From Minisyncoccota bacterium (lineage in GTDB: Bacteria; Patescibacteriota; Minisyncoccia; Phycocordibacterales; UBA9973): a stretch of 55,475 nt of DNA. Below are positions 1 through 33,652 of this stretch, piece after piece. The stretch is from contig JAGOTH010000004.1 of NCBI GenBank assembly GCA_018061865.1, positions 1 to 55,475 of the forward strand, in the 5' to 3' direction. How positions within the stretch are numbered: position 1 is the stretch's first letter; each line of letters starts with the position of its first letter. A program made the translations under genes and the position numbers. The notes beneath the pieces were generated by a model, which saw nothing but the letters and a program-made list of their open reading frames with translations, did no database searches and was not told the DNA's origin.

Positions 1-126
1 TTCACGAAGCCAGAACACTAACCAGAGAATAGACGGAACAATTCCGGCAATAATTGCGAAAATTATTGTAATCGGATCTTGATCTACTTTGCTTGTAGCT
101 GTTTCTAGTTGGTTTAAGAAATCCAT
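1..126 (-). CDS. PrsW-like membrane protein, N-terminal fragment
   Basis: Minus-strand reading frame that starts at ATG 126 and runs off the window after 42 codons. The visible peptide has a short polar N-terminus, then a hydrophobic helix with IIFAIIAGIVPSILWL followed by VFWLRE. That hydrophobic stretch ending in W-x-x-x-F/Y-x-x-R-E resembles the first membrane segment of PrsW-type intramembrane metalloproteases, but the catalytic motifs lie outside the window. Its first six bases, ATGGAT, form one copy of the direct repeat flanking the 127-243 element, so the native promoter (TATAAT at 262-257, minus) is now separated from the gene by that insertion. PrsW is an inference from one segment; 'membrane protein' is safer. 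Confidence 0.5.
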   Translation of the reverse strand, partial: MDFLNQLETATSKVDQDPITIIFAIIAGIVPSILWLVFWLRE

Positions 127-243
127 CACGTATGAAATAGGACGCGGACAATTTTGTCTTTGACTCTATTTAAATTATTTGTAATTTTGAAAATAAAATC
201 ATGTATTTGCAGTGCTGTTGTGTCGTCCGCTATTTCATACGTG
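127..243 (-). mobile_element. 117-bp MITE-like element, copy 1, with 6-bp target duplication
   Basis: The ends are inverted repeats: CACGTATGAAATAG at 127-140 and its reverse complement CTATTTCATACGTG at 230-243. The repeats are flanked by ATCCAT at 121-126 and again at 244-249. Read on the minus strand the flank is ATGGAT, the first six bases of the PrsW-like gene. Subterminal GGACGCGGAC and GTCGTCCG blocks also pair, so single-stranded DNA or RNA could form a long hairpin. No open reading frame is credible inside. Relative to the gene, the order is TATAAT, 7 nt, ATGGAT, element, ATGGAT, gene body. The 33064-33181 copy has the same ends and size. Confidence 0.8.
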
Positions 244-256
244 ATCCATTCTCTTT

Positions 257-27406: not shown

Positions 27407-27430
27407 ACCCCCGAAAGGGGGTATTTTATT
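27407..27430 (+). terminator. Intrinsic terminator after sigma/HARE gene
   Basis: CCCCC-GAAA-GGGGG with TATTTTATTTT following. Confidence 0.85.
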
Positions 27431-27444
27431 TTCTGTCTTCTTGG

Positions 27445-27450
27445 TATAAT
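27445..27450 (+). promoter_or_regulatory. Extended -10 box before the GIY-YIG element
   Basis: TGG-TATAAT, 7 nt before ATGGAT (27458-27463), the outer copy of the target duplication. It would originally have driven the 27738 gene as a leaderless message and now also drives the inserted GIY-YIG gene. Confidence 0.7.
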
Positions 27451-27463
27451 TTATGTGATGGAT

Positions 27464-27737
27464 CACGTATGAAATCACTCATGTTTTACACATACATTTT
27501 AAAAAGTCTTAGAGATGGTAAACTGTATATAGGATACACGAATGACTTACGGAAACGTTTTAAACAGCACAACGAAGGACTATCGACTTATACAAAAGGA
27601 CGTGGACCATGGGAAATCATTTATTACGAAGCTTGTCTTAATGAAGACGATGCAAGGTCGAGAGAATTATACTTAAAAACAGGAGTAGGAAGACGATATA
27701 TAAACTCACGTTTAAAACGTTTTCTATTTCATACGTG
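27464..27737 (+). mobile_element. 274-bp GIY-YIG-encoding element with inverted repeats and 6-bp target duplication
   Basis: It is bounded by CACGTATGAAAT (27464-27475) and its exact reverse complement ATTTCATACGTG (27726-27737). Flanking direct repeats are ATGGAT at 27458-27463 and 27738-27743, the latter being the start of the next gene. Nothing but the GIY-YIG gene is inside. The termini match those of the two non-coding copies at 127-243 and 33064-33181, which suggests that this is the coding member of the family. No transposase of a known class is present. Confidence 0.8.
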
Positions 27738-27738
27738 A
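27469..27738 (+). CDS. Small GIY-YIG nuclease domain protein
   Basis: 89 aa (85 if ATG 27481 is used). GIY-YIG core: FYTYILKSLRDGKLYIGYTNDLRKRFKQHN (about residues 6-35) with Y-T-Y and Y-I-G-Y-T for GIY and YIG, the catalytic Arg in LRKRF, then EIIYYEACLNEDDARSRELYLKTG with the metal-binding Glu. It is related to the UPF0213/YhbQ-type single-domain proteins that are abundant in CPR genomes. Translation appears linked at both ends: a 4-codon ORF from ATG 27458 ends in TGA overlapping ATG 27469 (ATGA), and its own TGA overlaps ATG 27738 (TGATG). It fills the element 27464-27737. Confidence 0.92.
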   Translation: MKSLMFYTYILKSLRDGKLYIGYTNDLRKRFKQHNEGLSTYTKGRGPWEIIYYEACLNEDDARSRELYLKTGVGRRYINSRLKRFLFHT

Positions 27739-28226
27739 TGGATTTAAAGAAAGTTCCAATTATAATTTTTGCCGGATTCGGGTTTCTTTTTGCCTTTATC
27801 TTGTTATCTCTTTATGTGTTCAATCTAGGACCTACTGATGTAGACAAGCCAGAGGCAACAAATTATTTCGGAGGAATCTCTCCTTCACCTCTTGGGATTT
27901 GCGGGGTTAAAATGGATACACCAAAATCCGGCGCTGAAGTTGTTTTCCCAATTATCATTGCTGGATATGTTGGAGATTGTGGATGGGATGTTGACGGTGG
28001 TTACGCTGGGAGTTTCCAAATAATTGATGAATCAGGGCGAACAATAACTGGAGAGATTGCACTTAAGGTTGTTTCAGCCGGATTTGGAAAATTTAACTTC
28101 TCATTTGCTGTTACTCCACACCTGCTTCCTTCTGGGGATGAGGGATATATTCTTTTTAGAGATGCTGACATTGGAAATGGAGACAAGGAAGACAGAGAAT
28201 TTATTGTGCCTATAAAATTTAAATAA
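27738..28226 (+). CDS. Exported single-anchor protein with Ig-like/Gmad2-like domain
   Basis: 162 aa from ATG 27738. The N-terminal helix VPIIIFAGFGFLFAFILLSLYVF (residues 6-28) is a membrane anchor. A Pro/Ser linker follows, then a beta-sandwich-like domain with VKMDTPKSGAEVVFPIIIAGYVG, FQIIDESGRTITGEIAL and a strand pattern ending EFIVPIKF. This layout resembles Gmad2/immunoglobulin-like surface domains. The first six bases ATGGAT are the inner copy of the target duplication of the GIY-YIG element. Confidence 0.75.
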   Translation: MDLKKVPIIIFAGFGFLFAFILLSLYVFNLGPTDVDKPEATNYFGGISPSPLGICGVKMDTPKSGAEVVFPIIIAGYVGDCGWDVDGGYAGSFQIIDESGRTITGEIALKVVSAGFGKFNFSFAVTPHLLPSGDEGYILFRDADIGNGDKEDREFIVPIKFK

Positions 28227-28248
28227 TAAGATACAATATACATACGTG

Positions 28249-29487
28249 ATGGAAATATTTAATACTATAATTTTACTTCTGATAAATGTTTTAATAAAAA
28301 CTGCGCCGATTTGGGTACCGGTTGTTTTGACTGCCGTTGCATTTTCTTTTTGGGTCAAATACATAAGAAAAAATTTCATAAACAGTATCAAGTGGACCCT
28401 GCTTGAAATAAGAATTCCAAAAGAGATTATGAAGTCTCCAGCTGCGATGGAGTTGGCTCTAATTAATGCTTTTCAACAATCAGGAGGAGTTGGAACTTGG
28501 ATGGCCAAATGGTGGCTGGGAAAAGTGTTACTTTGGTTTTCTCTTGAACTTGTTTCAACGGGAGGAAATGTAAAATTTTTTGTGAGAATTCCATCTCAAT
28601 TTAAGGATATTGTTGAGACAAATATTTATGCTCAATATCCTACTGTAGAAATTGTTCCTCACGAAGTTGATTATGTGGACCAAATCCCTCCTTTTGAAAA
28701 AAATAATAATTGGAATTTGTGGGGATGTAATTTTGTTCTAACAAAAGATGATCCATTGCCAATTAAAACTTATATAGACTTTGGCCTAGATAAAGCAGTT
28801 GGATCTGAAGAAGAAGAAAAGATTGACCCAATGTCGTCCATTATTGAGACTCTAGCCTCTATGAAAGCAGGAGAGCATATGTGGATACAAATAATGATTC
28901 GGTCTGTCCCAGAGCGATACACGGCCCCAGGACACTGGTTTAAGAAGAGAAGCTGGCAAGATCTCGGAAAAGAAATGGTTAAGAAAATAATTGAAGATAA
29001 CGGGGGTAAAGATGGAACAGGGAAAGCTTTGAAAGATTATTCAAAACTAACAGATGGACAAAAGGATATAGTAAAAGCTATTGAGAGAAGCATTTCAAAG
29101 CCTGGATTTGATGCTGGAATTAGGGTTCTATATCTTGGAGAGGGAGAAGCTTTTAAGGGTATGAACATAACAACAATAACCGGACTTTATAAATCTTTTG
29201 GAATTGGACATTTGAATGGTTTCAAGCCGACAAATATCCCTGCTTTTGATTATGATTGGCAAGATTATACGAAGAATCGAGCTTTTAATAGAAAGAAAGA
29301 CTTGTTCCAAGCTTACAAGTTGAGATCTTACTTTTACCCACCATATGATGAGAAAAATAAACCTTTTGTTCTAAACAGTGAAGAGCTTGCTACGATCTAT
29401 CACTTCCCAGGAAGAGTTGTCTCAGCTCCATCTTTTGAGAGAATCGATTCAACCAAGTCTCAGCCTCCAGCAAATCTGCCAATATAA
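28249..29487 (+). CDS. Conserved membrane protein of unknown function
   Basis: 412 aa from ATG 28249. One or two N-terminal helices (NTIILLLINVLIKTAPIWVPVVLTAVAFSFWV, residues 4-35) are followed by a large cytoplasmic domain with KWTLLEIRIPKEIMKSPAAMELALINAF. It ends with PFVLNSEELATIYHFPGRVVSAPSFER. A terminal N-x-E-E-L-A-T-L/I-x-H-F-P motif is familiar from proteins linked to VirB4/TraC-like ATPases in CPR genomes, so a role in a secretion or pilus system is possible but unproven. CATACGTGATGGA around its start matches the end of the mobile-element repeat and may be a footprint. Confidence 0.7.
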   Translation: MEIFNTIILLLINVLIKTAPIWVPVVLTAVAFSFWVKYIRKNFINSIKWTLLEIRIPKEIMKSPAAMELALINAFQQSGGVGTWMAKWWLGKVLLWFSLELVSTGGNVKFFVRIPSQFKDIVETNIYAQYPTVEIVPHEVDYVDQIPPFEKNNNWNLWGCNFVLTKDDPLPIKTYIDFGLDKAVGSEEEEKIDPMSSIIETLASMKAGEHMWIQIMIRSVPERYTAPGHWFKKRSWQDLGKEMVKKIIEDNGGKDGTGKALKDYSKLTDGQKDIVKAIERSISKPGFDAGIRVLYLGEGEAFKGMNITTITGLYKSFGIGHLNGFKPTNIPAFDYDWQDYTKNRAFNRKKDLFQAYKLRSYFYPPYDEKNKPFVLNSEELATIYHFPGRVVSAPSFERIDSTKSQPPANLPI

Positions 29488-30504: not shown

Positions 30505-30511
30505 TTACGGG

Positions 30512-31066
30512 ATGAATGAACAAAAATTAGCTTTTATAGACGTTGAAACAACTGGGCTTGATATTACTCGACACGAAATAATTCAGATCGGGGCTGTTAT
30601 TGTTTCTCAAGATGGTGAAATCGACGACAAATTCAAATTCACAGTTTTAGAAGAGCTCGAGCTTAAAGTAAAACCGGAGAGAATTGAAGATGCGGACAAA
30701 ACGGCTTTGCGAGTAAATGGTTATTCTCCGGATGATTGGGTTTTTGCTTACACACTTCCTGAGGCGATGAAAATGTTTGCCGAGAAAACGGAAGGATGTA
30801 TTATGGTTGCTCACAATATGGCTTTTGATTTTGCTTTTATAACAAAGGCATTTTCTGATACAAAAGTAGAAAATAAAATGCACTTCCATAAACTAGACAC
30901 AATCTCAATTGCCTATGCAAAAGCTCAAAGAAAAGAAGACATAAACCGGTTCTCTCTTCGTTCTTTGTGTGAGTTCTTTGGAATTGAGAACAAGAACGCT
31001 CACACTGCACTTTCTGACTGTCGAGCGACACTCGCGGTGTTTGAGAAACTAGTGAATCTAAAATAA
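30512..31066 (+). CDS. DEDDh 3'-5' exonuclease, DnaQ-like
   Basis: 184-aa exonuclease. Exo I FIDVETTGLD (residues 8-17), Exo II VAHNMAFDFAFI (about 98-109) and Exo IIIepsilon HTALSDCRA (about 169-177) supply the D-E-D-D-H residues. It could be the polymerase III epsilon proofreading subunit or a separate RNase T/DnaQ-type nuclease; no clamp-binding motif is evident. It lies 7 nt downstream of mltG in the same operon and is followed by a terminator. Confidence 0.9.
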   Translation: MNEQKLAFIDVETTGLDITRHEIIQIGAVIVSQDGEIDDKFKFTVLEELELKVKPERIEDADKTALRVNGYSPDDWVFAYTLPEAMKMFAEKTEGCIMVAHNMAFDFAFITKAFSDTKVENKMHFHKLDTISIAYAKAQRKEDINRFSLRSLCEFFGIENKNAHTALSDCRATLAVFEKLVNLK

Positions 31067-33049: not shown

Positions 33050-33063
33050 ATTACGGGATGAAT

Positions 33064-33181: not shown

Positions 33182-33652
33182 ATGAATGAACAAATTTTTT
33201 TAAATCTAACAATTTTAGATGTTTTTATTAGACTTTTTTTGGCAATAATCTTGGGGATGCTTCTTGGAATTGAAAGAAACGTTGCTCACAAGACTGTTGG
33301 GCTCCGAACATATGCACTTCTTTCTTTCGGTTCAGCTCTTTTTATAATAATTTCAGAAATGATAAGAATTGAGAATTTTGGTAGCGCTATTGTTGATCCA
33401 ACTCGTATTGCCGCTCAAATAATCACAGGGGTAGGCTTCATTGGAACCGGACTTATTATTTGGAAGGAAAAAGAGGGGATGCTCGTGGGGCTAACAACAG
33501 CAACCGGCTTCTGGGTTGCCACAGGAATTGGAATGGCTTGTGGTTTCGGATATTTTTCTCTTGCAATAATTGCCACATTGATGATGTTGTTTGTTTTGAC
33601 TATTTTGTGGTTTGTGGAAGACCGAGTTAAAAAGGTGATTGACAACGTTTAG
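33182..33652 (+). CDS. MgtC/SapB-family membrane protein
   Basis: 156-aa protein with five hydrophobic helices. The family motifs are LFLAIILGMLLGIERNVAHKTVGLRTYALLSFGSAL (about residues 18-53), DPTRIAAQIITGVGFIGTGLI (about 72-92) and GLTTATGFWVATGIGMACGFG. The C-terminal ACT-like domain of full MgtC is missing, as in SapB-type short forms. Function in bacteria is linked to Mg stress and envelope homeostasis. The start ATGAAT is the target site of the 33064-33181 element. Confidence 0.93.
   Translation: MNEQIFLNLTILDVFIRLFLAIILGMLLGIERNVAHKTVGLRTYALLSFGSALFIIISEMIRIENFGSAIVDPTRIAAQIITGVGFIGTGLIIWKEKEGMLVGLTTATGFWVATGIGMACGFGYFSLAIIATLMMLFVLTILWFVEDRVKKVIDNV

Follow-up and report, generated by a model that had tools for sequence, protein, structure and literature searches.

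How did a gene for an 89-residue GIY-YIG nuclease, enclosed by inverted repeats, come to lie exactly on the start codon of another gene? In the window (the whole 55,475-nucleotide stretch of DNA analysed here), this nuclease is the sole gene of a small unit, element B, whose terminal inverted repeats (TIRs), direct repeats and surroundings are as follows.

27408..27421, plus strand: terminator-like hairpin cccccgaaaggggg, 3′ of the upstream gene, with hairpins in the same place in relatives
27445..27450, plus strand: −10-like box TATAAT, 7 nt 5′ of the interrupted ATG, with similar boxes at most empty sites
27459..27462, plus strand: left target-site duplication TGGA, its register backed by the exact 4-bp repeats of related elements (below)
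27463..27738, plus strand: element B, a 276-bp GIY-YIG unit in the T...A register, bounded by reference to direct repeats and TIRs across relatives
27463..27475, plus strand: left TIR of element B, TCACGTATGAAAT
27469..27738, plus strand: GIY-YIG nuclease ORF, 89 aa, whose stop TGA overlaps the host ATG (TGATG)
27726..27738, plus strand: right TIR of element B, ATTTCATACGTGA, whose final base is the A of the host gene ATG
27738..28226, plus strand: 162-aa host gene, with element B at its start codon
27739..27742, plus strand: right target-site duplication TGGA

An initial annotation, made from sequence alone, had described perfect 12-bp inverted repeats around the GIY-YIG gene, ATGGAT flanks of which the right copy opens the next gene, and a TATAAT 7 nt upstream. 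Each of these statements held: the repeats (CACGTATGAAAT at 27464-27475 and ATTTCATACGTG at 27726-27737) are perfect, ATGGAT is present at 27458-27463 and 27738-27743, and TATAAT lies within the extended −10 TGGTATAAT. Chance can be ruled out as the source of the TIRs, because the 12-mer has only four occurrences in the 614-kb genome, arranged as two convergent pairs, one bounding element B and the other a noncoding element, A (below). The proposed 6-bp target duplication failed. Across relatives, the register is ATGNN/T....A/TGNN (slashes mark junctions), in which TGNN is a 4-bp duplication and the terminal A of the element completes the second ATG. The left base just outside CCCG/CACG is nearly always T, and the preceding bases vary and match the right flank as TGNN. 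ATGGAT is therefore rejected as a general register; the apparent repeat takes in the terminal bases of element B itself and is shifted by one base pair at either end, and the duplication is the 4-bp TGGA found in the register of related elements.

Element B is not the only one of its kind. The window also holds two noncoding elements with the same or related ends, and a fourth copy sits on contig C17 of the same genome.

1-126, minus strand: host gene of element A, cut by the contig end
122..125, minus strand: target-site duplication of A on the gene side, TGGA on the minus strand
126..244, minus strand: element A, 119 bp, noncoding, with perfect TIRs identical to those of B, at the start codon of a minus-strand gene
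245..248, minus strand: target-site duplication of A on the promoter side; TATAAT-N7 precedes its ATGGA
33059..33062, plus strand: left target-site duplication of C, TGAA
33063..33182, plus strand: element C, 120 bp, noncoding, TCCCGTACGAAAT...ATTTCATACTGGA, with TIRs related to those of B, at a start codon
33182..33652, plus strand: MgtC-family host gene of element C (Pfam PF02308, E=1.7e-32)
33183..33186, plus strand: right target-site duplication of C, TGAA

Elements A and C and their short relatives meet the criteria for MITEs, being short and noncoding, sharing TIRs with an autonomous element, carrying a target duplication and occurring in several copies. Among 98 convergent TIR pairs, 91 span 40-219 bp and seven span 271-282 bp, the size of the GIY-YIG element, making the short elements the commoner kind. 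A pattern search yielded 17 short elements, every one of them at a start, among these the starts of rplL, rplO and ssb. A second size class of noncoding class-b elements (TIR classes are described below), 186-206 bp and without a long ORF, was also observed (L195, L198, L205, L215, L249-L251, L260-L262).

Is the unit mobile? At the window locus, 20 family loci preserve the order of the upstream and host genes but lack a GIY-YIG gene between them, and most of these empty gaps consist of a terminator, a −10-like box, a short spacer and the ATG. Among 30 prgI loci read, six are occupied (five by GIY-YIG elements and one by a short derivative) and 23 have no TIR; one locus could not be parsed, leaving 23 empty of 29, and a further occupied genome (G163, L090) falls outside this count. 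Copies at different genes in one genome are 87-95% identical. Between two genera (L065 and L067), element DNA is 91% identical, a value that, set against PrgI protein identity of about 60% between such genera, suggests horizontal movement. The same 12-bp TIRs surround GIY-YIG genes (78-84% identity) in two genomes of another genus, again at start codons, and related TIR classes bound many more. The earlier proposal of a one-gene mobile element inserted at a start codon is thus supported by both of the checks suggested with it, the TIR search of relatives and the comparison of empty sites. Comparison shows a mobile, TIR-bounded, target-duplicating element that is seated at start codons and carries one nuclease gene.

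More broadly, a protein search of 147 family genomes gave matches in 72. We tested 114 distinct GIY-YIG loci, comprising the family loci and loci from other phyla, and found an inverted repeat scoring 11 or more around the gene in 64, compared with none of 114 in the reversed control. The TIRs sort into classes, which we label a-g, and these separate classes all carry the same kind of gene. Classes a and b are located at start codons, as is part of class c. Among the 38 distinct GIY-YIG elements that these three classes comprise, 32 adjoin a start codon directly and four more do so via a stacked short element at ftsE, and those at starts are all oriented in the direction of the host gene. The nuclease stop lies −4 to +5 nt from the host ATG (or terminal A) in 37 of 39 rows, one copy being counted twice (L069, L093). 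Searching by TIR alone gave 59 class-b elements. Of these, 44 carry a perfect 4-bp direct repeat, against a chance expectation of 0.23, and 48 have their end on the start ATG of an ORF (at least 40 aa), as compared with 0/59 on the outer side; about one in five elements is not at a recognisable start. Host genes identified by profile include topA, murG, rpiB, recR, ftsE, rplL, ssb, rplO and an M50 peptidase, the scores for murG, recR and rplO being below curated cut-offs. The same orthologous start has been hit independently by different TIR classes at the M50 gene (L060 versus L073/L082) and at a regulator (L059 versus L066). Class-b TIRs were found in 60 of 297 genomes from the order, where a single genome may contain as many as about 25 elements; outside the order they occur in only four of the genomes drawn, and single TIR matches in other relatives were dismissed as chance.

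Several observations concern elements with other ends or arrangements. GIY-YIG elements of the CCCCCACACC... class (L113, L115, L117, L121, L143) have flanks TGTGGATAA / TTATCCACA, or part of them, which are DnaA-box-like and indicate a different target preference. Class-d elements (ACCCTGTTAAAT; L110, L123, L125, L126, L128, L130, L134, L142) share similar outer flanks (TATAATTTTC-like, CGAAGCGA), show no visible duplication and lie away from start codons. Identical GIY-YIG elements of ~294 bp with TIR CCCCGTTAGAAAT lie on different contigs of one Brumimicrobium (Bacteroidota) genome (L036, L037), and this kind of element extends beyond CPR bacteria. In the window's own genome, a further GIY-YIG gene (L007, C14:2633) is flanked by two tRNA-like repeats, GCTGGGAGATCGTCTAATGGTAG. 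At ftsE, insertions are stacked (the L062, L063, L064, L072 and L155 group): in four loci a GIY-YIG element precedes a ~110-nt element, and the two lie 5′ of the ATG; L155 has a similar end 5′ of the short element, and in L062 the upstream region recurs beyond a run of N, this time with an empty ftsE site, either a strain variant or a scaffolding artefact. Finally, the 9-mer TACGKGATG, formed by the outer right TIR end plus TG, occurs seven times in the genome, at three element ends and at four start codons without an element end (28243-28251, 30506-30514, 33052-33060 and C14:52171). The latter could be scars of lost elements or a shared promoter motif; we do not accept them as proof of scars, given seven genome-wide matches versus four in the control, although every non-element match is at a start.

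What draws the element to start codons? The initial annotation took the target to be a leaderless gene. A leaderless promoter is not required, because a good −10 box at that spacing is present at 24 of 67 targets versus 10 of 48 ordinary starts, and one target, prgI, lies inside an operon. The targets are mostly ATGAA or ATGGA, and 20 of the 36 ATGRA sites outside coding interiors in the window are gene starts. Motif and selection may explain part of the start bias, because starts are rich in A/TGAA and A/TGGA and copies landing within a gene would be eliminated. The observed proportions at starts nevertheless exceed the ATGRA null, and this probably reflects either some true preference or further selection; which of the two remains undecided. 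The few insertions elsewhere include ACGAA in L234 and TTATA in L197.

Which enzyme moves the element? The 89-aa ORF matches Pfam PF01541 (E=3.6e-18), and only GIY-YIG/homing-endonuclease matches were returned for this single ORF by Pfam, NCBIfam and PHROGs. In 33 sequences, Y7, Y9, Y20, G22, H34, R65 and E66 are invariant and R30 nearly so; the fold and the catalytic Tyr, Arg and Glu meet the criteria for the GIY-YIG superfamily. The AF2 model (pLDDT 90.9) is nearest in fold to UPF0213, then SLX1, with I-TevI further off. A median dN/dS of 0.107 shows strong purifying selection on the nuclease. TIR class changes seven times on the nuclease tree (minimum 6, shuffled mean 41), although the tree rests on a short 80-column alignment and has many unresolved forks. 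No larger unit with a classical transposase was found, as none of the 98 convergent TIR pairs spans between 300 and 5000 bp, and with only a GIY-YIG ORF and no larger TIR unit the criterion of a DDE, HUH, serine or tyrosine transposase is not met. GIY-YIG genes whose TIRs match are present in several MITE-rich genomes (L265, L266, L269-L271); in a few others, for example G221 and G369, a TIR-matched nuclease is absent among the matches. Characterised GIY-YIG endonucleases leave 2-nt 3′ extensions (PMC2988022), which provide no obvious 4-bp stagger and count against the nuclease as mobiliser. To our knowledge, strand transfer by a GIY-YIG nuclease has not been described. That the nuclease drives mobility, as first proposed, thus stays an inference, now backed by the co-variation of TIR and nuclease.

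We propose that the unit is probably a minimal autonomous transposon, in which the GIY-YIG nuclease moves itself and noncoding derivatives; the role of the nuclease is inferred, without a biochemical or genetic test. In this model, the nuclease would recognise the TIRs of its own class and a target A/TGNN, preferably A/TGAA or A/TGGA, and insertion would usually duplicate 4 bp (3-5 bp are seen). With A as the last base of the element, the right junction would yield a new ATG; the host gene would keep a start codon, now 3′ of the element, with the original ATG in front. The nuclease ORF would run in the direction of the host gene and end near its ATG, an arrangement under which translation of the host gene could be coupled or re-initiated. 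The same ends bound noncoding elements of 40-220 bp, which would probably be moved in trans, and elements can stack at one start codon. Strand joining might be performed by host repair, the nuclease fold being close to that of structure-specific SLX1. The TIRs, duplications, empty sites, copies at multiple genes, start-codon position, co-orientation, purifying selection and nuclease/TIR co-variation are shown by comparison; cutting of the TIR and/or target by the nuclease, the strand-joining step and translational coupling are all inferred. A bolder reading, towards which we lean by a small margin, is that GIY-YIG nucleases are an unrecognised class of DNA transposase, in which a single domain of <90 residues would move a sub-300-bp transposon as well as MITEs in trans, with one branch specific for start codons and equipped with a codon-rebuilding terminal base that permits insertion into essential genes.

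The rival that survives best holds that the element is mobile but does not target starts, inserting at A/TGRA anywhere, with selection keeping insertions at starts since the terminal A restores ATG. It is compatible with our preferred explanation and is supported by the ATGAA/ATGGA targets, the share of starts among tolerated ATGRA sites in the window and the few insertions elsewhere. The proportions of 48/59, and of 17/17 and 36/38 in the family sets, exceed this null, however, and we judge the rival to be clearly less likely than not. A second rival, which we consider unlikely, assigns the TIRs and short elements to a different, unrecognised transposase and sees in the GIY-YIG gene only a passenger or a regulator carried by one derivative. 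In its favour, there are more short elements than GIY-YIG elements, GIY-YIG nucleases are not known to catalyse strand transfer and a few MITE-rich genomes have no matched nuclease. Against it stand the absence of TIR pairs of 300-5000 bp, the tracking of the nuclease tree by TIR class, strong purifying selection and the recurrence of the same kind of gene within separate TIR classes.

A third rival, a free-standing homing endonuclease that spreads by recombination only to the element-less allele of the same locus and reaches no new genes, is very unlikely. The homing-endonuclease profile matches of the domain, occupancy of the same locus in several genomes (prgI, ftsE) and a likeness to T4 seg genes, typically promoter-less intergenic cassettes read with their neighbours (PMC2988022), speak for it. 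By contrast, copies lie at dozens of unrelated genes without flanking homology, and the criterion of one homologous locus with spread by flank homology is not met among these targets; TIRs and many noncoding derivatives also argue against homing, and non-orthologous sites with exact 4-bp duplications already contradict it. Less likely still are host-domesticated regulatory hairpins at start codons, spread by ordinary recombination, for although the short elements fold as long hairpins and sit 5′ of rplL, rplO, ssb, recR and ftsE, a search for conserved RNA structure in them found a TIR stem with little covariation beyond it, their presence is sporadic with empty sites, and the target duplications are exact.

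Taking our preferred reading of a minimal transposon, how does the unit compare with known systems? Closest in kind are the T4 seg genes, where an intergenic cassette, expressed together with its neighbours, likewise holds no gene but that of a GIY-YIG nuclease (PMC2988022). Seg genes rely on break repair to enter the same locus, and no TIRs, duplications or noncoding derivatives are described for them in that paper, whereas the present elements have all three and reach new loci. Insertion sequences and MITEs share TIRs, short target duplications, autonomous and noncoding elements and several copies, and the classical insertion-sequence criterion of TIRs plus target duplication is met; the present element differs in lacking a DDE, HUH, serine or tyrosine enzyme, in its unit size of 271-282 bp and in the terminal A that restores the start codon. 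REP/RAYT systems likewise combine a small single-gene unit with related palindromic noncoding elements. RAYT is a Y1 HUH tyrosine enzyme, whereas the present enzyme is a GIY-YIG nuclease and the duplications are 4 bp; the Y1 HUH criterion was not met in Pfam, NCBIfam or PHROGs. In Penelope-like elements, a GIY-YIG nuclease also serves a mobile element, but these are eukaryotic reverse-transcriptase elements (PMC5718144), and the present element has no reverse transcriptase. UPF0213 and SLX1, the closest solved folds, are not known as mobile elements; SLX1 acts with a partner, SLX4, and has a further domain. A group I intron core around the ORF is excluded, as the 276-bp element leaves few nucleotides outside the ORF. 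In a review of transposable elements, GIY-YIG appears solely among homing endonucleases and within Penelope-like elements (PMC5718144), and no description of such an element was found in the open-access literature searched, a scope that leaves out most subscription papers. A family of ~280-base elements that insert at start codons in CPR bacteria appears to be undescribed.

If the nuclease is the mobilising enzyme, it would represent a new catalytic class among DNA transposases, and the elements would be among the smallest autonomous transposons known. Many small GIY-YIG genes found here and there in CPR genomes would also be accounted for. Rebuilding of the start codon offers a means for a mobile element to survive in genomes of about 90% coding density, allowing entry into topA, murG, rplL, ssb and ftsE, essential genes included, with the reading frame kept intact, and it constitutes a natural route for placing DNA at gene starts. 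The annotation of gene starts and 5′ regions in these genomes should change.
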